In this document: in pieces, positions 9,155 to 22,928 of the stretch
Position numbering within the stretch: position 1 is the first letter of the stretch
Layout: every line of letters starts with the position of its first letter
Notes under the pieces: model-generated
The model's input: the letters and a program-made list of their open reading frames with translations, nothing else
The model's database searches: none
Told to the model about the DNA's origin: nothing
IMG/VR virus record: IMGVR_UViG_3300020505_000004
Location: 1-31,037 of that record
Source of the DNA: a virus
Direction: 5' to 3' (one strand)
Length of the DNA stretch: 31,037 nt
Translations under genes and position numbers: made by a program

Positions 9155-11569
9155 CTACGAGAAGAAATACGGAGCATCCACCAACAACTTCGTATCAAGG
9201 GTTCCCTGGGGAGGAGCCGGTGGTAGCTCCATTCCCACGGGTAACTGAGCGTTGATCTGTCGGATCCAATCGCCCAAGGGATCACCATCGAAGGTGTCTA
9301 CCCATGCTGCCCGTAGTTCCCTGTTCAGTACCGGGGCGTAAGCAGCGTGTGTCAGGTAGGAGTCATGCACGAAAGCCATATCAGGTACCCCTGCTGCTAC
9401 CAACCGTATCGCTGTCTTCCGGGCTGCACAGGCATCCAAGGAGTGAACAAGGTTTGGAACGATGCCATGGATGTGCTTGCGCCTGTTGATCCGCGCTGTC
9501 TTCTTGCGGATCTGCCAGATGTTTGCCTGAGGTCCCAGGACAGTTCTGACCCGTGATTTGTCATAGTTCATGTATGACTGCTGCACAGTAAAGCCATCAG
9601 GGGTAACCCATGTGGCGTGTATCCCACTTTGAACGAGAACCTTGGCTGCCCGCTGCGCCCAACTGAGGAACGCCATGCCGCCTACACACACCTCGCTGAT
9701 TGCTGGCCATAGGCTCTTGATCAGGACTCCGCAGGGGTAACTCGGATCCATCCAAGGTCCACCACGGTGCTGCTCGAAGTATGCCTCTCGTAGGTACATA
9801 ACAGCAGACCGCTGCGAGATGCTGTAGGGAACAGTCATCACGACACGCTTGATGAGGCTCCGTGTGATCCCTAGTTCTGCCCATTGAGCAGCATGGTCAT
9901 CACCCCGCTTGGCAGCCTCAATGATCTTCTGCTGCGTCCGTGCAGCAACAATGCTGTAGATGTCTGCGGGGACATTAGAGGGCAGCAGGTTGACGGCTGC
10001 ACCCCCTACTTCATCCTTGAGGAGGAGCGAGAGAACCTGTAGGCCATTGCAGCTTCCATCGACGGCAACCATCAGGTGCGAAGGTTTACCGGCGCGGACA
10101 TTGGGTACATCAAGGCACCAAGCAAGGAACGAGAAGGGATCTGCGGCATCCTTCCAGCGACCCACGGTACCCAAGGGATCCTTGGCGATACTCTCGGCTT
10201 CCCCTGAGTTGACCCATTGGCGGGCTGCTGCCTCACGCTCCGCATAGGTGCCCTTGATACCCCTACAGGCTGCCGCATGGCGCAACCAGGCTGCTGTCGC
10301 CTCCCCTGCATGAGGGATCACATGACCCTGCCCGAACTCAATGAGACCCTTCTGAAGGTCATTACCCTGGTGGGACAGACCCGTGGACTGACAGTAGAAC
10401 CTGCCTCGGAAGTCCAGGCTTGAGGCATGGAAGAACCGGAGGTCACCCTCACTCGCAAACTTAGACGCAAGGCTGATGGTCTGAAGGATCCCGATGCGCC
10501 GTGACTTGATCCGCCGGTTGTTCTCGGCAACCCGGTTGGCCTCATGCCAGTACCTACGGATCTCAGCGCGTTGCTCAGGGGTCTTCTCACAGACCAAGTC
10601 GAGGATCGGAGGACGCGCAGGGAACACACCTTCGGCGTAGACATCAAGGTCACCCACGGGTGAACGGGTTTCCATGAGCCTCTGCACCACATCAAGGACT
10701 ACAGCATTGACGCGGTAAGGGGTGTGTTGCACAGCATTGATAGCGGCATACACCTCAGGCATAGTCTTGATGTCATGGCACTCGGTGGCTGACTTGGTAG
10801 CCCCACGAACCAACGGGAACCCAAGACCCTCCTCATAGCCACCATCGGTTGGTGAAGACCACTTACGGGGAGGGACAACCATGGGCATCTTGATGGGGTG
10901 CAAGGCCTCACCATGCTTCATGTTCTTGTGGGCATACTCCCAGGCATCCTCGGACAGGGACAGGAGCACCACCGTCTGCCGCATACCACGCTTATGGCTC
11001 CTACGCTCAAAGAGCCCTGTTGACTCAATAGCAGCAATAGCCAGGATGTACCCCACCTTGAGGGCAGTCTCATCGTCCCAGGCAAACTCGTTGGTGATGT
11101 CCGTGAAGGTGCGGGAGACAATCTTTCGGAGCTCCGAGGCTCTCCGTTGGGTAGTCCGATGGGCAACCCATTGCTGATACCGGGCTAACCGCTTCTCCTT
11201 GTCCTTGATCCTGATGGCAGTCAGGATGGCCTCAGTCTGGATGGTCTTGGCAGTAATGATGCAGACGCGGCTGAATGTCATGGACTTAGCAGCACCATCC
11301 ATGAACGACTGAAGGGCGATCAAGGCGACCCGGTCGTACTTGAGCCCAAGGTTCCTTAGGGCAGTTGCGCCTACCGAGGTTTCCCCGGGCAGAGTCTCCT
11401 CAAGGTGCTCTGTCATGGGCTGAATGGCTGCCGAGGTGAGGAGGGTTCCCCAGCCTGTCTCGGAACTCCTACCGGCATCCATGGCTACCTTAATCCGTGC
11501 ATAGAACCGACGGCGACCACGCTCATAAGACTCCAGGTCAAGTTCACGCTGAGAAAGCTTCTTAGACAT
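9155..11569 (-). CDS. Single-subunit DNA-directed RNA polymerase, T7 gp1-like
   Basis: The protein is 804 residues (T7: 883). Motif A is VAVDGSCNGLQVLSLLLKDE with catalytic D504. Motif B is RSLIKRVVMTVPYS with K574 and Y582, corresponding to T7 K631 and Y639 (ribose selection). Motif C is AFVHDSYLTH with catalytic D736. The segment SSLDFRGRFYCQSTGLSHQG (383-402) matches the conserved family core. The C-terminal end YFFS corresponds in place to the T7 FAFA foot. The residue after Y582 is Ser instead of Gly and the following loop is unlike T7, while the rest is intact. The enzyme transcribes the middle and late genes from phage promoters, probably the TTGACCA-core sites described here. AAGGAG lies 7 nt upstream of ATG 11569. 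The gene directly follows the attP region. Confidence 0.97.
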   Translation of the reverse strand: MSKKLSQRELDLESYERGRRRFYARIKVAMDAGRSSETGWGTLLTSAAIQPMTEHLEETLPGETSVGATALRNLGLKYDRVALIALQSFMDGAAKSMTFSRVCIITAKTIQTEAILTAIRIKDKEKRLARYQQWVAHRTTQRRASELRKIVSRTFTDITNEFAWDDETALKVGYILAIAAIESTGLFERRSHKRGMRQTVVLLSLSEDAWEYAHKNMKHGEALHPIKMPMVVPPRKWSSPTDGGYEEGLGFPLVRGATKSATECHDIKTMPEVYAAINAVQHTPYRVNAVVLDVVQRLMETRSPVGDLDVYAEGVFPARPPILDLVCEKTPEQRAEIRRYWHEANRVAENNRRIKSRRIGILQTISLASKFASEGDLRFFHASSLDFRGRFYCQSTGLSHQGNDLQKGLIEFGQGHVIPHAGEATAAWLRHAAACRGIKGTYAEREAAARQWVNSGEAESIAKDPLGTVGRWKDAADPFSFLAWCLDVPNVRAGKPSHLMVAVDGSCNGLQVLSLLLKDEVGGAAVNLLPSNVPADIYSIVAARTQQKIIEAAKRGDDHAAQWAELGITRSLIKRVVMTVPYSISQRSAVMYLREAYFEQHRGGPWMDPSYPCGVLIKSLWPAISEVCVGGMAFLSWAQRAAKVLVQSGIHATWVTPDGFTVQQSYMNYDKSRVRTVLGPQANIWQIRKKTARINRRKHIHGIVPNLVHSLDACAARKTAIRLVAAGVPDMAFVHDSYLTHAAYAPVLNRELRAAWVDTFDGDPLGDWIRQINAQLPVGMELPPAPPQGTLDTKLLVDAPYFFS

Positions 11570-12249: not shown

Positions 12250-13245
12250 CTATCCCTGCTGTGAACGCTCAAGCATCATGACCACATCGTCCATACTCGA
12301 AGGTGCCAAGTGGGCGTACACTAGGGTCGATTGAATGCACTGGTGACCCATCCACATTTGGACCCGACGGACATCCACACCTGCCATCACTAGGCGACTC
12401 GCACAGGTGTGCCGGAGGCTGTGAAAGACCACCCCCGCATCCGTGATCCCCGCCGCCGTCGCAGCCCGCTTGAACCGCCGACTCGACTCCGTGGGACTCA
12501 AGTCCACGAAGGGTCCGGCAGACTGCCTCGGTAACCGCTCCATCACATCCCGAGCCCGCCGGGTCAAAGGCACCCCACGGCACTTACCGTTCTTCGTGAG
12601 GGTCAAGGAGATCCGGTCAACCCCCACATCCCGCCACCGAAGGTTTAATAGTTCGCTGATGCGGCACCCGGTCTCCACCGCGACCACCACCAGGTCAGCC
12701 GTCGGAGTCGATCCCAAGTGTGAGAGAATCTTGTCCTCCTCCTCATGGGTCAGCCAACGCCGCTCCTTCTTATGTTCCTTGCCAAAGGGGATCTTGGGCT
12801 TCGCAGCAATCCAATCCATATCAGCAGCCAAGTTCATCATCGTTGACAAAGCAGCCAGCCGCCGGTTGATGGTGGCCTGGGAGAGCCCTTGGAATTGCAG
12901 ATCCATGACCATCTTCACGACCACGGCATGGGTGATCTCGGAGACAAGTCTCCCCGGGGAGAGAAGGGCAACCACCCTGCCCCCCACATCAGTCATCGAG
13001 TCTGTTCTGAGTCTTGACCAACGGGTCTTATGGGTGATAAGAAAAAGATCCTGTAGCGTGTGAGTCTCTTTTTGGTCAACAATTGGTGCCGAAAGAAGAA
13101 CACTGGTGTCCTCACCACTATCAACAGCCAACTCAAGCCGCCGCCGCCACAGGTTTGCTTCCTTCTCAGTCTTGAAGCTTTGCCGGTACCGCTTACCGGA
13201 AACAGTAAAGGAGGCCTGATAGGAGTTACCGCGTTTCGTAAGCAT
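12250..13245 (-). CDS. int: Tyrosine integrase (site-specific recombinase)
   Basis: The 331-residue protein has an N-terminal arm-binding region (MLTKRGNSYQASFTVSGKRY, then a basic helix), a core-binding SAM-like domain (about 60-150) and the catalytic domain with all key residues: R195 (ETGCRISELL), K218 in the beta-hairpin (TLTKNGK), HSLRH (H275, R278), GH (H301) and the nucleophile Y310 (STLVYAHL). It would integrate and excise the phage at a host tRNA-Leu gene using the att core about 220 bp downstream. AAGG lies 7 nt before the ATG, which directly follows the stop of the MarR-like gene, so the two are co-translated. A TTGACCA-core promoter-like site lies inside the 5' part of the gene (13085). 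Integrases are unusual in T7-like phages generally but recur in marine groups. Confidence 0.96.
   Translation of the reverse strand: MLTKRGNSYQASFTVSGKRYRQSFKTEKEANLWRRRLELAVDSGEDTSVLLSAPIVDQKETHTLQDLFLITHKTRWSRLRTDSMTDVGGRVVALLSPGRLVSEITHAVVVKMVMDLQFQGLSQATINRRLAALSTMMNLAADMDWIAAKPKIPFGKEHKKERRWLTHEEEDKILSHLGSTPTADLVVVAVETGCRISELLNLRWRDVGVDRISLTLTKNGKCRGVPLTRRARDVMERLPRQSAGPFVDLSPTESSRRFKRAATAAGITDAGVVFHSLRHTCASRLVMAGVDVRRVQMWMGHQCIQSTLVYAHLAPSSMDDVVMMLERSQQG
13065..13085 (-). promoter_or_regulatory. Possible internal promoter P5 within integrase gene
   Basis: The minus strand reads CAATTG, TTGACCA, AAAA, then GAGA (presumed start 13068). This matches the 17-bp frame of P1-P4 and shares the GAGA start with P2. 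It lies inside the coding sequence, so a chance match is quite possible. Confidence 0.3.
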
Positions 13246-13759: not shown

Positions 13760-14115
13760 TAGTAGACCCTCAGAAGAAGTTCGCCACGGAAATAGTTCAC
13801 ACTCATACGCAGACCCCCAGCCTCCACGAGTGCCCCCACTCGTCGCAAACCCAAACCCTGGATAGCAGCCATACGGTGCTCCCAGCGAGGCCCCAAGATG
13901 CGTGCTAACTGCTCAGCACCAATACGAAACTCATTGACATCCCAAGATTTCAGCATCTCCTTGCGGATTGCTCTATCAAGGACTCGTTCGGTGGAGTTAT
14001 AGGATAATGGATCCCCTTTAGATAGAGCCCGACGGCTTCCATCAGGGAATTTTCCCCATATTTCTGCATGATCTGAGGGAAGTGAAGCCACTGCACGGGA
14101 AGTTCGGGGAACCAT
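13759..14115 (-). CDS. Hypothetical basic protein, 118 aa
   Basis: The start overlaps the preceding stop as TAATG (14117-14113) and the stop overlaps the next ATG in the same way, so it sits in a chain of coupled genes. The protein is arginine-rich (MVPRTSRAVASLPSDHAEIW, ERVLDRAIRKEML) with a central helical segment (EQLARILGPRWEHRMAAIQG) that has a helix-turn-helix-like look and a strand-rich end (RMSVNYFRGELLLRVY). DNA binding is possible but unproven. No family is recognised. It belongs to the integrase operon. Confidence 0.7.
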   Translation of the reverse strand: MVPRTSRAVASLPSDHAEIWGKFPDGSRRALSKGDPLSYNSTERVLDRAIRKEMLKSWDVNEFRIGAEQLARILGPRWEHRMAAIQGLGLRRVGALVEAGGLRMSVNYFRGELLLRVY

Positions 14116-14336
14116 TACCAGTGTCCTCCCCGTGACTCCATCTCAGTCACCTTTTTTTGGATCATTAACAGGCTCTCCTTGGCCGCATCAATGCGACCCG
14201 CCTGTTCAATAATAAGGTCTGCTGCACGGGCGAACATAAGGGAATCAGGGGAAACCCCAAGGTCACCCCCCTCAGCCCTCGCTCTTGCCCGTAGGTAGTT
14301 CGCCGTCACTTCCACAATCGGATCTAGTGCCTTCAT
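14115..14336 (-). CDS. Hypothetical helical protein, 73 aa
   Basis: GGAGG lies 7 nt before ATG 14336, which makes the start secure. The protein is almost entirely helical: MKALDPIVEVTANYLRARAR, then a short Gly/Pro turn, then SLMFARAADLIIEQAGRIDAAKESLL and a final helix MIQKKVTEMESRG. No known domain or catalytic motif is visible; a small adapter or inhibitor is conceivable. It overlaps the end of the preceding gene by 65 nt in another frame and the next start by TAATG. Confidence 0.72.
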   Translation of the reverse strand: MKALDPIVEVTANYLRARARAEGGDLGVSPDSLMFARAADLIIEQAGRIDAAKESLLMIQKKVTEMESRGGHW

Positions 14337-14475
14337 GCTCCGCCTCCTTGCGATGTAGTGCCTCAGTCAGTGCCAACAGAGCCAGTTTGTGAGCATCCAA
14401 TGCTCTTTCCAGCTCCACGATTCTCCGCCGTAAATGCACATGGGTAACCACGGTGCCATCTGGATTTAGTTCCAT
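14272..14475 (-). CDS. Hypothetical coiled-coil protein, 67 aa
   Basis: The protein begins MELNPDGTVVTHVHLRRRIV and forms a leucine-rich heptad helix (ELERALDAHKLALLALTEAL) at about residues 20-45. The last ~20 residues overlap the next gene and are Gly/Ser/Asp-rich. The candidate promoter P4 starts transcription only 15 nt upstream of this ATG and no ribosome site is visible between them, so translation may be leader-poor or begin elsewhere. It is the first gene of the operon that ends with the integrase. No function is known. Confidence 0.55.
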   Translation of the reverse strand: MELNPDGTVVTHVHLRRRIVELERALDAHKLALLALTEALHRKEAEHEGTRSDCGSDGELPTGKSEG

Positions 14476-14487
14476 TGCAGGGAATTG

Positions 14488-14507
14488 TCCTTGGTGGTCA
14501 ATGATTC
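14488..14507 (-). promoter_or_regulatory. Candidate phage RNA polymerase promoter P4 (head of the integrase operon)
   Basis: The minus strand reads GAATCA, TTGACCA, CCAA, then GGA at the presumed start 14490, the same 17-bp frame as P1 and P3. It lies between a strong terminator (14588-14546) and the first gene of the operon leading to the integrase. The upstream half is less A/T-rich than in the others. Confidence 0.55.
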
Positions 14508-14545
14508 GTCAACGGGAATGTAAGGGGAATAGCAGAATAATTCGC

Positions 14546-14588
14546 GAAAAACAAAAACCCTCCCAAGGGGCGTAATCCCTGGGAGGGC
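14546..14588 (-). terminator. Rho-independent terminator with ATTACGC loop (H4)
   Basis: On the minus strand a 7-bp stem CCCTCCC/GGGAGGG, a single bulge and a further AGGG/CCCT stem enclose the 7-nt loop ATTACGC. The tail TTTTTGTTTTT follows at once. This is the clearest intrinsic terminator in the window. It ends the transcript of the early genes at 15654-14662 and precedes promoter P4. The loop is the exact complement of the loop in three upstream leader hairpins. Confidence 0.88.
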
Positions 14589-14661
14589 CTATTGCATCTA
14601 CCCTGCTATAACAGGGGATGCGTGGACGGGAATGGGTTCAGTGGGGAATCATCATAATGCT

Positions 14662-15057
14662 TTACGAATAGTGGCGGTCACCCTGGTGCTCTGATTCACC
14701 AGGCTTTGATTCAATCACAACAAAGTACGCCTCGGCACCATCCACCTCGGGAAGGGAATCAGAGTCTAGCCCACGCGCTTCCAACCAGTCACACTGGCGG
14801 GCACAATGGGCATTCTCGACGCGCTCCGCTTCCTTACTCTCGCGTAGTGCCACTGCCCCTACACGCGCTTCCAATACACGCGCTTCCTCAATCGACGCGC
14901 AGTGTTTATAGGAAACCAGTTTAACATCACTTCCCCACCAGCCCCCTTCCTCAGGGCCACCATAGTAGGGAATGGTTACATAGAGGGAAACAAAGTGACC
15001 CCCAAGGTAGACCGGCGGATTCACTACGGTATTGAAAGCTGCAACTAGATGGCTCAT
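14662..15057 (-). CDS. Hypothetical early protein, 131 aa
   Basis: ATG 15057 has GGAGG 6 nt upstream and overlaps the preceding stop as ATGA; the longer frame from 15123 lies over the previous gene and is rejected. The protein starts MSHLVAAFNTVVNPPVYLGG and has a strand-rich, tyrosine-rich first half (HFVSLYVTIPYYGGPEEGGW), a helical, Glu/Arg-rich centre (ASIEEARVLEARVGAVALRE) and an acidic strand near the end (AEAYFVVIESKPGESE). No known family is recognised. It is the last gene before the terminator at 14588. Small early proteins of T7-like phages often disable host functions, but no role can be assigned here. Confidence 0.75.
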   Translation of the reverse strand: MSHLVAAFNTVVNPPVYLGGHFVSLYVTIPYYGGPEEGGWWGSDVKLVSYKHCASIEEARVLEARVGAVALRESKEAERVENAHCARQCDWLEARGLDSDSLPEVDGAEAYFVVIESKPGESEHQGDRHYS

Positions 15058-15311
15058 CGGTCGCCTCCCTTCAGGCGAGGGGAATCCTGACCCTCTACCC
15101 AAACAAGATCCCCTATATGCCACCCGTAGCGGAGAATGTCTAGGCCGTCATGGATTTTCCAAACAACATCAACGACTCCATCACTGGCTATTGATAGTCC
15201 CCATGTTTTAACAGTCGCTTCAATGACCGAATCCGGGGGAATCGAATCGAACCCGATAGTGTTCCGATCATCGTTAAAGCTTCGCATATCTAGGCGGTAG
15301 TGGCTGGTCAT
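15054..15311 (-). CDS. Hypothetical early protein, 85 aa
   Basis: ATG 15311 has GAGGA 5 nt upstream, so I start here rather than at 15437, where the frame crosses a hairpin and lacks a ribosome site. The protein (MTSHYRLDMRSFNDDRNTIG...) contains an alternation of short strands (SVIEATVKTWGLSIASDG, VVDVVWKIHDGLDIL) and ends QDSPRLKGGDR. It looks like a small beta-rich protein; no family is recognised. The leader of about 100 bp upstream carries hairpin H1. Confidence 0.72.
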   Translation of the reverse strand: MTSHYRLDMRSFNDDRNTIGFDSIPPDSVIEATVKTWGLSIASDGVVDVVWKIHDGLDILRYGWHIGDLVWVEGQDSPRLKGGDR

Positions 15312-15352
15312 AGTAATCCTCTGCAAGTGTCGGGAATATCTGCCCTCATCAG

Positions 15353-15375
15353 TTCCCCTTATTACGCAAGGGGAA
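15353..15375 (-). promoter_or_regulatory. Leader hairpin H1 with 7-nt loop ATTACGC/GCGTAAT
   Basis: Perfect 8-bp arms TTCCCCTT and AAGGGGAA enclose ATTACGC (plus strand). In the minus-strand transcript the loop is GCGUAAU. It lies in the ~100-bp gap before the gene at 15311. Two other leaders carry hairpins with different arms but the same loop in the same orientation. Confidence 0.7.
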
Positions 15376-15414
15376 TACGGATCATTTAAGATCCGTTTCG
15401 GGCGCGTAGGGGAA

Positions 15415-15654
15415 TCACTCCAGCATGGCAGCGTCATCGATGGATTCGCATACCCATACGGTCACCCCTGTTAGCCATATGCGTTCCTCTTCGGTCAGTA
15501 GTTCGGGGGAATCAAGGAGCCCCAGTGCGGCCACTAGGCAACGATGGGCCTCCCAGTGATCACCTACCCATTCCCCCTTATCCACGCGGCGAAGGAGGGA
15601 ATTGATGCGATCGGATACGGTAGTGGATGTGGCGCGTGGCATAGGGATATTCAT
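15415..15654 (-). CDS. Hypothetical early protein, 79 aa
   Basis: The protein (MNIPMPRATSTTVSDRINSL...) is mostly helical: LRRVDKGEWVGDHWEAHRCL, VAALGLLDSPELLTEEERIWL and an acidic end VCESIDDAAMLE. Promoter P3 would start transcription 16 nt before ATG 15654, and an AGGA lies at the very start of that transcript, about 13 nt upstream. The ATG at 15642 is an alternative start. No family is recognised. The C-terminal acidity may indicate a DNA-mimic or inhibitor role but this is speculation. Confidence 0.68.
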   Translation of the reverse strand: MNIPMPRATSTTVSDRINSLLRRVDKGEWVGDHWEAHRCLVAALGLLDSPELLTEEERIWLTGVTVWVCESIDDAAMLE

Positions 15655-15667
15655 GGTATCGGTTTAT

Positions 15668-15687
15668 TCCTGTTTGGTCAATTAATT
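15668..15687 (-). promoter_or_regulatory. Candidate phage RNA polymerase promoter P3
   Basis: The minus strand reads AATTAA, TTGACCA, AACA, then GGA at the presumed start 15670. It differs from P1 in only a few positions over 20 bases and again gives a short (16 nt) leader. It lies right after the stop codon of the cysteine-rich protein gene. Confidence 0.66.
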
Positions 15688-16430
15688 TAATGAGCAATAA
15701 TGGCAATGCCGGAGCACAATCCACGGCGACCACTTGCGCCCGAGCACAAACGGCATCGGTCGCACTGGGTACGGTTTCCCCCCTCGGCACTCGCGGGACA
15801 AACCACTTCGCCGGGAATCATGGCATCAGTAGCGGAACTACGGACGCGGAAGGTGCGCCACCCTTGCGCTTGGGCTTCGGCGTGTTCCTCAGGGGAATCC
15901 ACGGATGCCATGCATAGGTGCTTATGGCTAGATGCCGTGCGCCATTGGTGTGTGTAGCCCGTATAGCCCGATGCCCTTGATACTAGGGAATCCCACACAT
16001 CCGCCGGAACCATTGCCGGATCCCCGTAGGCTCCTAGGCGAACGGCGCGGCCTCGAATCATGGACGATGCATCGCCTGGGGAAACCGTAGGGTAGTTGCC
16101 CGCAGCGTAACAACGATAGACGGCGTTAACGGATTTCCCTACTTCCACATAGCAGGTTCTAGGGGAATCAATGGATCCCCTATGTTTACAGTCTCCGCAG
16201 ATAGACGCGTCCTCGCCGTTCGCTAGGGCATCCGTAGGTCGAATGTCACTACGGATAATGAATGTCTGCGCCATATCGCCCGTCTTGGCATTGCGGGAAT
16301 GCCATACAACTATGGCGACAATGGGCGCACCGTCGATAGGGGAGGATCCTTCCCATATGACTGCCCCCGATGAACGGGGAATCTGTGGCAAGGTGATAGC
16401 GCGGGCCGTAGGCCGTTCTAGTAGTGACAT
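15687..16430 (-). CDS. Cysteine-rich early protein, 247 aa, widespread phage/plasmid family
   Basis: ATG 16430 with GGAG 8 nt upstream is preferred over 16472, which has no ribosome site and would place hairpin H2 in the coding sequence. Metal-type cysteine pairs occur at C78/C81 (ICGDCKHRG), C93, C211 (VVCPASAEGG) and C223/C226/C229/C239 (QCDRCRLCSG), so two zinc-binding sites are likely. The segments NGEDASICGDC, TCYVEVG and EAQAQGWRTFRVRSSATD recall a hypothetical family seen on many phages and plasmids whose function I do not know. It is the largest early protein here. P3 follows its stop at once. Confidence 0.8.
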   Translation of the reverse strand: MSLLERPTARAITLPQIPRSSGAVIWEGSSPIDGAPIVAIVVWHSRNAKTGDMAQTFIIRSDIRPTDALANGEDASICGDCKHRGSIDSPRTCYVEVGKSVNAVYRCYAAGNYPTVSPGDASSMIRGRAVRLGAYGDPAMVPADVWDSLVSRASGYTGYTHQWRTASSHKHLCMASVDSPEEHAEAQAQGWRTFRVRSSATDAMIPGEVVCPASAEGGNRTQCDRCRLCSGASGRRGLCSGIAIIAH

Positions 16431-16451
16431 TGTGCAGACTCCGAATAGATC

Positions 16452-16470
16452 GCCCGCATTACGCGCGGGC
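16452..16470 (-). promoter_or_regulatory. Leader hairpin H2 with 7-nt loop ATTACGC/GCGTAAT
   Basis: Perfect 6-bp arms GCCCGC and GCGGGC enclose ATTACGC (plus strand; GCGUAAU in the transcript). It lies 22 nt before the chosen start of the cysteine-rich protein gene, in a ~110-bp leader that also holds a 12-bp palindrome TAGGGATCCCTA at 16497-16508. Confidence 0.68.
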
Positions 16471-16542
16471 ATCGGCGGGAATCAAAGTGATGCCCATAGG
16501 GATCCCTACGGATGGCCGTAAGGATCCGAATGGATGCCACTA

Positions 16543-16848
16543 TTAGAAGTCTTGCACCACAACTACAGCCGATGGGTGAATCTTGGGATCATGCTCGAGC
16601 ACCGTAGTAGCGTCGCGTAGTTGCTTGGGAGTGACCCCCCAAGCGCGAGCTGCTTCATCGATGGTTTCGAACTCTGACCATTCGCACCGTATAGCTACCC
16701 GGTCGAATGTAATGGGTTCGCCCGTGTCCTCCGATAGTGCGTCTAGGTGTTCCATGATTAGACGGGCACCAAACCCGGTCCATCGGGCGCATTCATCGCG
16801 TAGGAGTATGTCCATACCATCTTCGACGGATAGGTGTAGCACTACCAT
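16543..16848 (-). CDS. Hypothetical phage protein, 101 aa, conserved small early family
   Basis: ATG 16848 overlaps the previous stop as TAATG. The protein starts MVVLHLSVEDGMDILLRDEC and contains LIMEHLDALSEDTGEPITFD and RVAIRCEWSEFETIDEAARA. A short phage protein with the 'E...F.P.AIRC.WSEY.S.EEA...' pattern is common in tailed phages, with no role known to me. It is acidic, with a central strand RVAIRCEW. In the leftward early operon it is followed by a 112-bp leader and the cysteine-rich protein gene. Confidence 0.78.
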   Translation of the reverse strand: MVVLHLSVEDGMDILLRDECARWTGFGARLIMEHLDALSEDTGEPITFDRVAIRCEWSEFETIDEAARAWGVTPKQLRDATTVLEHDPKIHPSAVVVVQDF

Positions 16849-16976
16849 TACGCGCCTACTTTCATTGCAAGCATGGCCGCATAGGTTCCATGGGCTACGA
16901 TTCGGTAGCCATTGCGTACCGTGTCGCCCTTACAGACGATGCGGTTTCCGTGTGAATCTGTTTGAAGCGTGTACAT
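16848..16976 (-). CDS. Small early protein, 42 aa
   Basis: ATG 16976 has AAGGGA 7 nt upstream; the longer open frame from 17072 lacks a ribosome site and would include hairpin H3. The protein starts MYTLQTDSHGNRIVCKGDTV and continues RNGYRIVAHGTYAAMLAMKV, a compact beta-type sequence with one cysteine. The stop overlaps the next ATG. Too small to assign to a family. It is the first gene after a 470-bp non-coding stretch. Confidence 0.62.
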   Translation of the reverse strand: MYTLQTDSHGNRIVCKGDTVRNGYRIVAHGTYAAMLAMKVGA

Positions 16977-17011
16977 TCGTGAATCCCTTATAGGAGGAGT
17001 ATGAATCGATT

Positions 17012-17026
17012 CCGCATTACGCGCGG
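17012..17026 (-). promoter_or_regulatory. Leader hairpin H3 with 7-nt loop ATTACGC/GCGTAAT
   Basis: Arms CCGC and GCGG (4 bp) enclose ATTACGC (plus strand). It lies 36 nt before the start of the 42-aa gene. Together with H2 it shares the 14-mer CGCATTACGCGCGG, present at 16455 and 17013. Confidence 0.55.
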
Positions 17027-17445: not shown

Positions 17446-17742
17446 TCAAGTGCCCCTTCGATACCCCAACCTCCAAAGAGCCTCGGCGACCCCTTCAGCT
17501 CCTTGGGCAACCGCTGACTCCTCAAGATCCGGGTAGGCAGCATGGATGATCTCATGGATGACCGTATCCAGTTCATCCTGAGGCTTCTGCCCCAGGGCTA
17601 TCCTAATGATCCCTTGGGTGTAGTCACACTGTCCAGCGGAGTCCCCAAGGTTCGGTACGAACCTAAGTCCCCATTTCTTCCCTCTCACCTTAAGAGTCTT
17701 AACGGTCCTCCTCGGACTCCGAGCAGGGTCTCCGCTAGTCAT
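17446..17742 (-). CDS. Small early zinc metallopeptidase-like protein (HExxH)
   Basis: The 98-residue protein has AGAGG 7 nt before ATG 17742. The N-terminus is basic (ARSPRRTVKTLKVRGKKWG) and the centre has strands (LRFVPNL, CDYTQGIIRIAL) before TVIHEIIHAAYPDLEE, a HExxH zinc motif (H63, E64, H67), followed by EGVAEALWRLGYR. Small phage proteins of this layout (strands, HExxH, then a helix ending LWRLGYR) form a known family related in outline to SprT-like or minigluzincin peptidases. A third zinc ligand could be one of the glutamates after residue 73. It is the first gene after the terminus-like repeats, so it should be among the first expressed; a host target is possible but not shown. Confidence 0.8.
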   Translation of the reverse strand: MTSGDPARSPRRTVKTLKVRGKKWGLRFVPNLGDSAGQCDYTQGIIRIALGQKPQDELDTVIHEIIHAAYPDLEESAVAQGAEGVAEALWRLGYRRGT

Positions 17743-17763
17743 CCTTTAGTCCTCTTAAGGTGT

Positions 17764-17935
17764 CTTTAGGTTCCTTGGTTCAGCATCATCAGTCTTCCTA
17801 TCTGATCTTCTGTAGGTACCCTTAGGTATCCTTAGGTATCCATAGGTATCCTTAGGTTCCCTGGTTCATCATCATCAGTCTTCCTATCTGATCTTCTGTA
17901 GGCACCCTTAGGTATCCTTAGGTATCCATAGGTAC
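17764..17935. repeat. Two tandem 86-bp repeats (A units) in the terminus-like region
   Basis: Unit A starts at 17764 and again at 17850 with only a few differences. Each holds TTAGGTTCC, a shared core including ATCATCAGTCTTCCTATCTG, and a tail of 10-bp sub-repeats CCTTAGGTAT, CCTTAGGTAT, CCATAGGTA. The nested repetition has no open frame. CCTTAGG/CCTAAGG words resemble in character the short repeats next to T7 genome ends. Confidence 0.85.
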
Positions 17936-18092
17936 CTGTCTACTGTCTTCTTTGTAGATTGCTGTTGTCATACCCATAGGCACCTTTAGGTACCCATAGG
18001 TACCCTTAGGTATCCCTAAGTATCTGTCTACTGTCTTCTTTGTAGATTGCTGCTGTCATGCCCATAGGCACCCTTAGGTACCCATAGGTACA
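17936..18092. repeat. Two 88-bp-spaced repeats (B units) in the terminus-like region
   Basis: Unit B starts CTGTCTACTGTCTTCTTTGT at 17936 and again at 18024. Each copy continues through GTAGATTGCTG and ends in CCATAGGCACC(T/C)TTAGGTACCCATAGGTA, the same sub-repeat family as in the A units. The second copy ends near 18092. Together with the A units it makes a ~330-bp repeat block. Confidence 0.83.
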
Positions 18093-18364
18093 CAAGACCA
18101 GCGTCTAGGTCACCGAGGGGGATTCCCACTACCCCCATGGCCGCTGAACGGCATCTTTAGGAAATTAGATCATCGGGACCCTGTATAGACGCTGTTTGCC
18201 CAGCAAGGCTCCTAGGTTGCCCCAGGATCGATTCTTTCCCTTTGGGCGACCTTTGACCCACCCGAGGGGTTCAAAGGGCACCTGGGGCATCCTGCGGCTT
18301 CGTATGGACGCAGAGGCTCCTAGTGAGACCTTGTTCAGGGCTCTGCGACTACCTGGGGTGTCGA
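18093..18364. other. Structured non-coding stretch between last late gene and repeats
   Basis: This ~270-bp stretch follows the last adhesin gene. It contains inverted repeats: GCCCCAGG near 18218 with CCTGGGGC near 18281, and a closer pair CTTTGACCC/GGGTTCAAAG around 18250-18278. A TTG-started frame of 67 codons (18368-18165) crosses it, basic and without a ribosome site; I do not call it. It may hold a late transcription terminator or part of a packaging or end-forming site. Confidence 0.45.
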
Positions 18365-19005: not shown

Positions 19006-19797
19006 TTATGGTGTTGTTGGTTGTGTTGGCGGCGTAAAGTTGGCTGTGTATCTGGCAAATCCTTTGGTAATCCGAAGTTCGTCAATATAACCATTGAAAC
19101 TTCTCGCACCGCCTGGAAAGAATTGATAGCCACCGACTCGTAATGAGGTACCAGAACGAATGAAATTGGACGATGTTGTTGACCCAATTTGTGTGCCGTT
19201 GTAAAATAAACGAACTGTGCTTCCTGAACGACAAACAGCAATGTGATGCCAAGTGTTTGTTGTGGGAACCTGACTACTAGATACAAGAGTATTCCAACCA
19301 GTTGTGCTAGATCCTAAAAAAGTCAATGTGTTATTGGCTTCGGTAATCAAAGCCCAACCTGTTTGATCTCCACCTATTGCTGAACCAATAAGACCCTGAT
19401 AGCCCACATTGTTCGCATTAAACCGCCACCAACCCTCAATTGTAAAATCACCAGAATATTCAAAGTTGGTCATTTGAGTATTGATTAGACCAAAATCTCC
19501 TGTGCCATCTAGCAGCAAAGACGATCCGCCAAACTTACTTTGTGCGGTGCTGATTTTTGCATTATCTTGAGGAGTTACGGTTACTTGTGATAAACTACTA
19601 TCGGTAATTGTGGTGCTGTTGTTGGCTCCATCGCAATGAAGCAAAAGAGTAACAAAACTGTAATAGTCATCACTTGAGACGATGAACAACCCCAAATCTC
19701 TCTCAATGTAATGCTTCAGACTAGGAATGGTTCCTGCCAATGTACGGCGTTGATCTGTGGTTCCTGAGTATCCGCTGTTGAGTCTCCATCGCCTCAT
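19006..19797 (-). CDS. LamG/concanavalin-like adhesin, 263 aa
   Basis: A laminin G-like jelly roll covers about residues 50-255. The features are [64 protein letters not shown] and [20 protein letters not shown], the standard strand order of this fold (including 'G.IDE.RI.KG.ARYT.NFT'). Such domains bind sugars, so it is probably a receptor-binding appendage tip. ATG 19797 overlaps the stop of the collagen-like gene (ATGA); an in-frame ATG at 19809 is a close alternative. The N-terminal ~50 residues may be the attachment to the collagen-like shaft. Confidence 0.85.
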
Positions 19798-20603
19798 GCT
19801 AAGAACCATCCCTTCTTTATGTCTGCTGCTGCACCTGTCGCGCCAGTTGCACCTGTTGCACCTGCAGGTCCTGTAGGTCCTGCGATAGTGCTTGCTGCTC
19901 CTGCGGGTCCTGTAGGTCCTGTTGCTCCCGTAGGTCCCGTTGGTCCTGTAGGTCCTGTAGGTCCCGCAACAGTACTTGCTGCACCTGTTGCACCTGTAGC
20001 ACCTGTAGCACCTGTAGGTCCTGCTGGTCCTGTGGCACCTGTAAGTCCTGTAGGTCCTGCTGGTCCTGTGGCACCTGTAGGTCCTGCGACCGTACTTGCT
20101 GCTCCGGTAGGTCCTGTAGGTCCTGCAACAGTACTAGCTGCTCCTGTGGCTCCTGCGGGTCCTGTTGCACCTGTAAGTCCTGTAGGTCCTGTAGCACCTG
20201 TAAGTCCTGTAGCACCTGTAGGCCCTGTAGGTCCTGCGGGTCCTACTGCACCAGTAGGTCCAGCAATAGTGCTTGCGGCTCCTGTTGCTCCCGTAGGTCC
20301 TGTAGTACCTGTAGGTCCTGTAGCACCTGCGGCTCCTGCAGGTCCTGTAAGTCCTGTAGGTCCTGTAGGTCCTGCAACAGTACTAGCTGCTCCTGTGGCT
20401 CCTGTTGCACCAGTAGGTCCTGTGGCTCCTGTAGGTCCTTGGATTCCTGTGTAGTAAGCAAGCGCTGTCCATGCTGTAGTACCGTCGCCAGCCTTAATCA
20501 GCTTTGTATCAGTTTCAAATCCTAATTCGCCAACAATCAAAATTGGATTAGCAGCAGTCCATTGTGCGGCGGTACCCCGTCTTATTTGAATCTTAGATGC
20601 CAT
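19794..20603 (-). CDS. Collagen-like fibre with Mtd-type N-terminal domain, 269 aa
   Basis: Residues 1-53 ([51 protein letters not shown]) match the N-terminal domain found on phage tropism-determinant and fibre proteins. From about residue 55 to 258 the sequence is Gly-X-Y collagen-like, rich in GPTGATG, interrupted six times by the cassette [14 protein letters not shown]. The end is [10 protein letters not shown]. It probably trimerises as a rigid shaft carrying the LamG-like protein made from the overlapping next gene. The repeats make the DNA repetitive, so length variation between isolates is likely. The corresponding plus-strand frames are open only because of the repeat. Confidence 0.9.
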
Positions 20604-21131: not shown

Positions 21132-22928
21132 TTAGGGGGTCGTTAGGGTTTGGAGTTGTGTATTAGTTAGGAAAATTGGGTAGAACTTAATTTGCTTAAA
21201 GTGAGCGTTTACAGTTCCACCAATACCAATTCCAAGTGATGTTGCAGATGAATATCCAGCAGCAACTACACCTGTCGCAACAGTTCCCCCATTGAAAACA
21301 ATGCTTTTATTACTTTGATTATAAGAACTAGCAACCTTTGCACTAACTCCCGTTGCAGTGCCAGTCGCATTCAAAATATTTGTTCCATCATAAGACGCTA
21401 CCAATATGCTCCCTGTTGGCAAATACACAATTCTCTTTGATCCACTGCTATCGAAAGTTAATAGAAGAGAGGCAGAAGGCGTAATTCCAGAATATGTAGT
21501 TTGAAAATTACAGAGGAATGTGCCTTCTAGTGAGTTAGACCAAGAAGAGAAGTTCGTTCCGGTCATCACGCATGAGTCCTCATTCCGCGTGACCCCACTC
21601 GCACCCGTAGGGATGTAGGAGGATGCGCCGGAAGTTTCTTCAATTTGTGCGCCCCAAATATGAAGCGAGTCGTTTGTCGTTTGCCCAGAAGTACCCTTTG
21701 GGTAAAGGAACGCCTCAAACTTTCCCGTGCCACCAAGAACCGCATCTGTAGTAATGGCTACTCGCGTCCACCCCGTGGACGAAAGATTAGTAATAGTTGG
21801 AGCAGCTGATCCGTTTCCTGTGAAAGAAGCGGAAGCATTTGCTGGCTGCGAAATAACTACACCAGAAGAATTAACAATTCCTCCTGAATTGAAAAGCAAG
21901 AATGCTCCCCTATTTGTTCCCTTTGCTTTTAACCAAACGCTGTATGTAACTTTCGATGTTGTTGAAACTCCAAGAAGGGACGGACCAAGAAAGCGATTGT
22001 CACCGTTTGAAGTCGGCGCGAACCAAATGTTTCCAACAGTTCCGGCTGGATTCGTGCCAGTGGTTTCATTAAACAGTGTCGTAGTGTTAGGAATATAAAA
22101 TGCCGACGCAAATGTTTCGCTGTTGATTGCCTTATTCACCGCTTGAGACTCAATCAGCAGTCCCCTTGGTTGCCCAATGTTCGTAGGGCTGTAGTCGAAC
22201 CGAGGGGTGCTGTAATTTTGTGTTGTAGTCGTTGGAAGATATTCACCAACCGATGCACCCGGTTGAAGTTGTAATCCCCAGATATAAATGTTTGCCGATA
22301 CACCCGGACCGCTAACAATTGATCGTTGGTCAACTCCAACATCAATCGCACGATTTGCTGTGTCAGTCAGAGTGAACGCTGAAGTATTAAACCGTTGCCA
22401 TGTCTCTGTAACGGAACAAGTTGTGATTGAACTATTCGCTCCGGTGTTGATATTGGTAATTCTCAATCCAACAGATGCGGTTCCTGAAACAGTCCGCATC
22501 CACACGCTTCCAACATACTGCTGACCAACCGGGTTTGTTATTGCTGTTACATTATAAAAGTAATCTACGCTCCCAAAGTTTAGTTGGTCTGCCGTCAGTG
22601 TTCCGTTTGGGGCAATTGCCACATTAGCGGTAGCAGTAATGCTCTGCGCTCCCCCCCAAGATCCGCAGTTCTCTGAATGCGTCATGAGGTTCGCATTGGC
22701 AAATTGAACATACCCACTTGAGTTTACAAAGGTCGCAGTACTGGCTCTGCTGAAGGTCAACCGAGGATCAAGAACACCCGTAGTAAAATCAAGACTGAGC
22801 GTGGAGCCATCCCCTTGGTAGTTCGATGGCATCATTGTCGCCCGCCCACCCTTTCGCATACCCATCCCGCTGAATGGGATGAAGTTAGTGGGTGAACTCG
22901 TGGATGAGTAGGTATTGCTATATGTCAT
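21132..22928 (-). CDS. Multi-module receptor-binding appendage protein, 598 aa
   Basis: After a flexible N-terminus comes the phage fibre segment LSLDFTTGVLDPRLTFSRAS followed by TATFVNSSGYVQFANANLM. Two carbohydrate-binding-like modules follow, each with a 'W'-containing start, a 'VW(M/L)' strand and an ending of the form IWG.Q(L/I)..G....YLPTT or YIPTG (about residues 85-230 and 275-455). A C-terminal third (about 470-598) resembles a concanavalin-type lectin. This is a typical modular receptor-binding protein. Start 22928 overlaps the large terminase stop as ATGA, an unusual place for such a gene. Composition is more A/T-rich than that of the terminase gene, so recent acquisition or fast evolution is likely. 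The exact fold of each module is inferred. Confidence 0.82.
   Translation of the reverse strand: MTYSNTYSSTSSPTNFIPFSGMGMRKGGRATMMPSNYQGDGSTLSLDFTTGVLDPRLTFSRASTATFVNSSGYVQFANANLMTHSENCGSWGGAQSITATANVAIAPNGTLTADQLNFGSVDYFYNVTAITNPVGQQYVGSVWMRTVSGTASVGLRITNINTGANSSITTCSVTETWQRFNTSAFTLTDTANRAIDVGVDQRSIVSGPGVSANIYIWGLQLQPGASVGEYLPTTTTQNYSTPRFDYSPTNIGQPRGLLIESQAVNKAINSETFASAFYIPNTTTLFNETTGTNPAGTVGNIWFAPTSNGDNRFLGPSLLGVSTTSKVTYSVWLKAKGTNRGAFLLFNSGGIVNSSGVVISQPANASASFTGNGSAAPTITNLSSTGWTRVAITTDAVLGGTGKFEAFLYPKGTSGQTTNDSLHIWGAQIEETSGASSYIPTGASGVTRNEDSCVMTGTNFSSWSNSLEGTFLCNFQTTYSGITPSASLLLTFDSSGSKRIVYLPTGSILVASYDGTNILNATGTATGVSAKVASSYNQSNKSIVFNGGTVATGVVAAGYSSATSLGIGIGGTVNAHFKQIKFYPIFLTNTQLQTLTTP

Follow-up and report, generated by a model that had tools for sequence, protein, structure and literature searches.

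A candidate RNA-based regulon in the early operon of a temperate T7-like phage, with common-loop leader hairpins, a type II hammerhead ribozyme and a complementary terminator loop

The early genes of phage T7 are transcribed into a polycistronic mRNA, which is cut between genes by the host RNase III, leaving hairpin ends. Fully complementary hairpin loops of 7 nucleotides (nt) occur in RNA I and RNA II of ColE1, which are transcribed from opposite strands of one locus; the c4 RNA of phage P1, on the other hand, is located on the same strand and in the same operon as its target. This antisense RNA blocks translation near a ribosome-binding site (PMC12197685), and the complementary segments of the P1/P7 c4 RNAs are thought to lie in loops (PMC12197685; Citron and Schuster 1992, as cited in PMC8546580). 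Type II hammerhead ribozymes were described from prophages, where multiple copies flank single genes (Perreault et al. 2011, PMC3088659); in the majority of members loop I forms a pseudoknot with the 3' tail, although this does not strictly define the type, and it is not yet clear what hammerhead ribozymes do in phage genomes (PMC3088659). Hammerheads, phage antisense RNAs and kissing loops are each of a known kind; here we describe a locus where they seem to be combined, the early operon of an uncultured, temperate T7-like phage in the IMG/VR virus record IMGVR_UViG_3300020505_000004 (positions 1 to 31,037; this whole stretch of 31,037 bases is called the window below). Three leader hairpins, H1 to H3, have one loop in common, H1 belongs to a type II hammerhead ribozyme, and a terminator hairpin, H4, has the complementary loop. 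It is probable that a small RNA encoded by the phage regulates the phage's early genes.

The common loop and its complement

An earlier reading of the letters alone (the sequence-only reading) had reported the loop GCGUAAU in H1 to H3 and its full complement, AUUACGC, in H4; all four hairpins were present as placed. They are in the same transcript sense, since all genes considered in the early region are on the minus strand, and the fully complementary loops lie on one strand, up to 2.4 kb apart. H1 (15353-15375) has a perfect stem of 8 base pairs (bp) and precedes a gene of 85 amino acids (aa; 15054-15311), seen in the sequence and in comparisons of gene order in relatives. H2 (16452-16470; 6 bp, loop at 16464-16458) is situated about 10 nt before the GGAG of a 247-aa early gene (15687-16430; PHROG 2554, function not annotated); it lies within a possible frame of 261 aa, but falls in the leader when the better start, the one with GGAG, is taken, from which the protein has 247 aa. 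H3 (17012-17026; 4 bp, loop at 17022-17016) is promoter-proximal, in the leader of a 42-aa early gene (16848-16976) kept in relatives, and folding could extend it by an outer helix AUCG/CGAU if an internal loop is allowed. Transcription is expected to start just upstream of H3, from an early promoter of the sigma70 type (17068-17041, TTGACC-16-TATACT, 10/12 in a consensus scan). The arms, which had been called unrelated, are so for H1 and H4, while H2 and H3 have 15 nt in common (CCGCATTACGCGCGG). In the same region (16425-16500, minus strand) a second covarying hairpin precedes the H2 leaders; it reads GGGAATCA-CTT-TGATTCCC, and GGGTTCA-CTT-TGAACCC in contig L014.

In the window, one 7-nt loop is common to three hairpins with stems of at least 4 bp, against a maximum of two in shuffled sequences (0/200). 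When the early region was shuffled, neither three hairpins of one loop (0/1000) nor two of one loop plus a complement (0/1000) were obtained. GCGTAAT occurs also at 16847-16853, where it overlaps TAATG at a gene junction and forms a hairpin in the relative L016 only, and at 21479-21485, without a hairpin.

Relatives were gathered by queries with the RNA polymerase (RNAP) and with the 247/261-aa protein, then with a ribozyme pattern. Two groups were obtained, a window clade (L008, L012, L013, L014, L016) and, with RNAPs 58–59% identical where covered, a sister clade (L099-L102, L179-L181, L183, L185, L186, L188, L196, L197, L293, L300, L303). In 22 related contigs, with RNAPs 58–99% identical where covered, the loop is kept on arms that change with compensation. 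Within the window clade both sides of the arms vary around leader loops that stay the same, e.g., CCGC/GCGG, CCGA/TCGG and CCGT/ACGG in H3, and TTCCCCTT/AAGGGGAA and TACCCACT/AGTGGGTA in H1. The arms of H2 covary as well, and L013 and L014 have a second copy of H2 ahead of another gene. Among 21 distinct leader hairpins from both clades, 96.8% of cells are paired, all six inner arm pairs show compensatory changes, and the covariation score is 0.949, compared with 0.179 after shuffling. The loop varies at one position in some ribozyme copies and is otherwise invariant. In the sister clade a comparable early promoter is followed by a GCGUAA-loop hairpin, and in part of this clade the promoter-proximal hairpin has GCGUAA in another frame (loop AGCGUAA), which argues that the sequence is conserved rather than one loop geometry.

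H4 (14546-14590) consists of a GC-rich stem (14558-14587) with the loop AUUACGC at 14576-14570, followed by a U-rich tail (14557-14546); a terminator scan agrees with its designation as a terminator in the window. Exactly one AUUACGC hairpin is present in each of the 19 contigs which cover the region (19/19), always downstream of the last ribozyme and just before a second promoter. The loop ATTACGC is found in every distinct version, with compensatory changes at three of five inner stem pairs. Together with a preceding hairpin, GCAUC-CCCUG-UUAUAG-CAGGG-UA-GAUGC, H4 and its U-tract form a conserved block of 89 nt (14546-14634), a candidate small RNA, which has a minimum free energy of -41 kcal/mol (z=-5.3 versus shuffles) and is kept in L008, L013, L014 and L016 though the genes upstream differ. 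The U-tract is strong in the window clade only; the counterparts in the sister clade have weak U-rich tails. Just before the AUUACGC hairpin of the sister clade a short hydrophobic frame (about 33–39 aa) was noticed, at approximately 5015-5110 in L099 and 7195-7310 in L101.

Selection on the GCGUAAU loop, proposed in the sequence-only reading, is well supported by these comparisons: relatives keep the loop in early leaders on arms which change with compensation, the opposite of a pattern of conserved arms and lost loops, and the loop of H4 is invariant on changing stems.

The type II hammerhead ribozyme at H1

The region around H1 (15334-15403, minus strand) is well supported, by sequence match, core, folding and covariation, as a type II hammerhead ribozyme of which H1 is stem I. 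The match to Rfam RF02276 amounts to 29.3 bits (E=0.035) in the window and reaches 36.6 bits in relatives; both values are below the gathering score of 37, which is a curation cut-off and not a biological feature. The sequence can be written as GCCC-GAAAC-GGATC..GATCC-GTA-TTCCCCTT GCGTAAT AAGGGGAA-CTGATGA-GGGC. The catalytic core (GAAA and CUGAUGA) is intact, and the cleavage-site triplet is GUA in the window and GUC in the sister clade. Unconstrained folding of the window RNA gave a three-stem junction (z=-4.2) with stems I and III closed by loops and stem II open. In 19 copies from both clades the 16-pair structure is paired in 99.3% of 301 cells, with compensatory changes in stems I and III. 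Self-cleavage is predicted 3' of GUA, between 15376 and 15375, and would give the downstream mRNA a 5' end at 15375, the first base of H1. H2 was considered as another hammerhead and rejected, as it has no catalytic core.

Relatives contain one to four such ribozymes before early genes, with up to four in tandem. The ribozyme closest to H4, the last one, carries a loop which does not match that of H4 (GCGUCAU, GCGUGAU or GUGUGAU) in twelve contigs of the sister clade, and the earlier ones match. The assignment of H1 to a ribozyme, the up to four copies in relatives and the second complementarity described below go beyond the sequence-only reading.

Similar elements were seen in other T7-like phages. 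L178 (4135-7980) has nine type II hammerhead-like elements before genes, upstream of a T7-like RNAP; they were found by pattern, are not listed by Rfam at E 0.1, and mostly share a different stem I loop, GUNNNGC. L146 (5550-6110) contains two other hammerhead-like elements before genes, with CTGATGA or similar, then GAAAC, and a common loop TTAATT; there is one weak match to the RAGATH-1 hammerhead. Three similar hairpins with the loop GCCTGACTT are located between genes of L174 (4516, 4787 and 5012).

Proposed control of the early genes and its alternatives

Pairing between the leader loops and the loop of H4 is likely, judging from their complementarity and context, and in the sister clade there is a second complementarity. 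There, CCUACUUUC stands directly before the AUUACGC hairpin; it is exactly complementary to GAAAGUAGG, which serves many early genes of this clade as ribosome-binding site. The invariant CCTACTTTC before the hairpin is an exact 9-nt complement of the early ribosome-binding site, antiparallel and in register with the pairing of the loops. In both clades together, 33 of 55 GAAAGTAGG sites lie 25–42 nt after a GCGUNA loop, where GAAAGGAGG is never used. For the 9-bp duplex -11.1 kcal/mol was predicted, versus -4.1 for the same site with the 16S tail of E. coli, which may not match the tail of the host.

We consider it rather probable that these elements constitute an RNA-based regulon of the early operon, which spans the early promoter through H4, and that the loop of the H4 RNA pairs in trans with the leader loops (kissing), repressing the translation of early genes. 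Leader hairpins with GCGUAAU would arise in three ways, i.e., downstream of a host-type promoter (H3), by self-cleavage of a ribozyme, whose stem I would become a new 5'-terminal mRNA hairpin (H1), and in an intergenic leader (H2). The RNA bearing H4 would be freed by termination and by cleavage at the upstream ribozyme and would form loop-loop complexes with the leaders; in the sister clade it would also pair through CCUACUUUC with the ribosome-binding sites. Since CCUACUUUC would pair with leader GAAAGUAGG sites in that clade, the most likely output would be that, after complete transcription of the operon, translation of the early genes is repressed. A kissing link between leaders and terminator is also the best of the three meanings offered by the sequence-only reading, except for its attenuation or antitermination part, which is not supported: a good U-tract of H4 is found only in the window clade, and the evidence from the sister clade points to the ribosome-binding site.

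Several points weigh against this interpretation. The ribozyme scores just under the Rfam gathering score. As the loop of H4 and those of the leaders hardly vary, no double change proves their pairing. At the ribosome-binding sites of the window clade no convincing second contact with H4 RNA was found, shuffled sequences being often as good, and a promoter belonging to the H4 RNA itself was not detected. H1 of the window is the last ribozyme before H4, yet its loop matches. Stem II is invariant too, and contacts with it may constrain loop I within the ribozyme. Finally, the sister-clade contigs share ancestry, and the agreement among them is not fully independent.

Constraint within the ribozyme could perhaps be the whole explanation: GCGUNAU would be a stem I loop engaged in a tertiary contact, H2 and H3 would be relics or copies, and the complement in H4 would be incidental. 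Tertiary contacts of loop I are known in type II hammerheads (PMC3088659), the loop is accompanied by an equally invariant stem II with invariant flanks (GCCCGAAAC, GGGCAG), and the type II hammerheads of other T7-like phages conserve a different stem I loop, GUNNNGC. We nevertheless regard this explanation as unlikely, because H2, H3 and the promoter-proximal hairpins of the sister clade keep GCGUAA(U) on covarying arms without a catalytic core, the loop of H4 is kept on changing stems, and a search for a pseudoknot with the 3' tail of stem II gave no consistent complement of loop I of at least 4 bp among the ribozyme copies. Loop I, as the expected tertiary-contact loop and the full complement of the H4 loop, would also allow H4 RNA to control cleavage through competition for it; this appears improbable, as it leaves unexplained why H2 and H3, leaders without a ribozyme, have this loop too.

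The 5'-terminal hairpins and a 3'-terminal hairpin with a complementary loop might instead kiss within or between early mRNAs and protect or circularise them, without repression of translation; products of ribozymes carry 5'-OH ends, as is established chemistry. To this possibility we give little credence, since in the sister clade the ribozyme product which bears H4 has a non-matching 5' loop, and the CCUACUUUC complement targets the ribosome-binding site. A protein which binds GCGUAAU loops, another meaning put forward in the sequence-only reading, would select an invariant loop on varied stems as well, but H4 has the complement rather than the same loop, which such a protein does not account for, and GCGUAA is kept in different loop frames; it seems very improbable. 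Least credible of all are cruciform or operator sites at the DNA level, the third meaning: the hairpins are inverted repeats and all four share one loop in the DNA, but H1 stands in a ribozyme context and the G-U wobbles of the sense strand are A-C mismatches on the other strand. Retention of the loop in non-ribozyme leaders, the mismatched last ribozyme and the CCUACUUUC/GAAAGUAGG complementarity together favour an antisense RNA which covers the leader loop and the ribosome-binding site.

The family suggests a role for hammerheads, namely to cut early mRNA so that the pieces begin with a standard hairpin recognisable by a matching RNA. If true, this would connect regulation by a trans-acting RNA with self-cleaving ribozymes, and would do so in a temperate T7-like phage. 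The proposal is directly testable, as cleavage sites, loops and expected compensatory changes are predicted to the base.

Surroundings of the locus and comparison with described systems

A scan of the window proteins showed a T7-like phage with its own RNAP (9155-11569), primase/helicase, DNA polymerase, terminase and a tyrosine integrase (12250-13245). Close relatives were not present in a collection of phage isolates, the best RNAP matches there being 31% identical, and no close prophage which could indicate the host was found in bacterial genomes. Just past H4, a promoter-like sequence (14512-14484, TTGACG-17-GACAAT), obtained by scan and with a counterpart after H4 of the sister clade, leads an integration module with genes for proteins of 67 aa (near-leaderless), 73 aa and 118 aa, a helix-turn-helix protein (144 aa) and the integrase. 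Relatives keep the same order of early operon, H4, second promoter-like sequence and integration-module genes.

The hexamer GGGAAT, read as ATTCCC in the transcript, has 23 copies in one orientation, and the whole set falls within 14045-16482 (plus strand) of the window; the strand bias is also present in the early regions of both clades; these repeats are possibly repressor sites (stoperator-like) or an RNA motif, and the 144-aa helix-turn-helix protein nearby is a candidate for a binder. Arrays of a 10-bp CCTTAGGTAT-like unit (17740-18100), between late and early genes, look like the short repeats beside the terminal repeats of T7. Genome ends seem to be joined in the record, and none of the proteins scanned was recognised as the product of one of the usual head genes. 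A tail-fibre gene with collagen-like 9-base repeats is located at 19794-20603 (minus strand).

Distant relatives of the 247-aa protein (L017-L029) are without GCGTAAT leader hairpins; the leader-hairpin system therefore does not follow this gene. Among 190 contigs and genome loci with T7-like RNAPs, shared loops with a complement are confined to this clade, except for L242, where they belong to a repeated inverted element. L090, a pattern match, has two overlapping GCGTAAT repeats near the contig end and no relation to this phage group. Searches with the gapped pattern CCTACTTTC-N-ATTACGC gave new matches, most of which, among those listed, are probably due to chance.

A combination of 5' ends with a common loop, made by a promoter or a ribozyme, with one complementary RNA at the operon end was not found in the open-access literature, nor were publications which join hammerheads and Autographiviridae. 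We would put at about even the chances that this is an undescribed circuit, in which 5' hairpins made by a promoter or by hammerheads share a loop read by one RNA from the 3' end of the operon, which in one clade would also read the ribosome-binding site and which silences several early genes in trans; such a circuit could possibly have a role in the lysogeny decision or in superinfection immunity.

Compared with described type II hammerheads (RF02276), the H1 region has the same GAAA/CUGAUGA core and three stems with stem II open, and it also lies between phage genes. It differs in its score just under the Rfam threshold, in that the usual loop I pseudoknot was not found, and in a nearly invariant loop I which is common to non-ribozyme leaders and matched by a separate hairpin. 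The proposed H4 RNA would resemble c4 of P1/P7 as a phage antisense RNA which pairs around a ribosome-binding site and which is located on the strand and in the operon of its targets; complementarity to the target region is present in the sister clade (CCUACUUUC) and was not found in the window clade. No described antisense-RNA family was among the Rfam matches up to E=1 at the locus (window and four relatives). Unlike c4, the H4 RNA is placed at the 3' end of the operon and would face several leaders, where promoter-proximal or ribozyme-made hairpins mark the targets. The fully complementary 7-nt loops GCGUAAU and AUUACGC recall RNA I and RNA II of ColE1, except that both partners are here on the same strand at different places. 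As in the RNase III processing of T7, an early polycistronic transcript of a T7-like phage is proposed to be cut between genes, leaving hairpin ends; here the predicted cutter would be an embedded ribozyme, and the loop of the hairpin it produces is common to other leaders.

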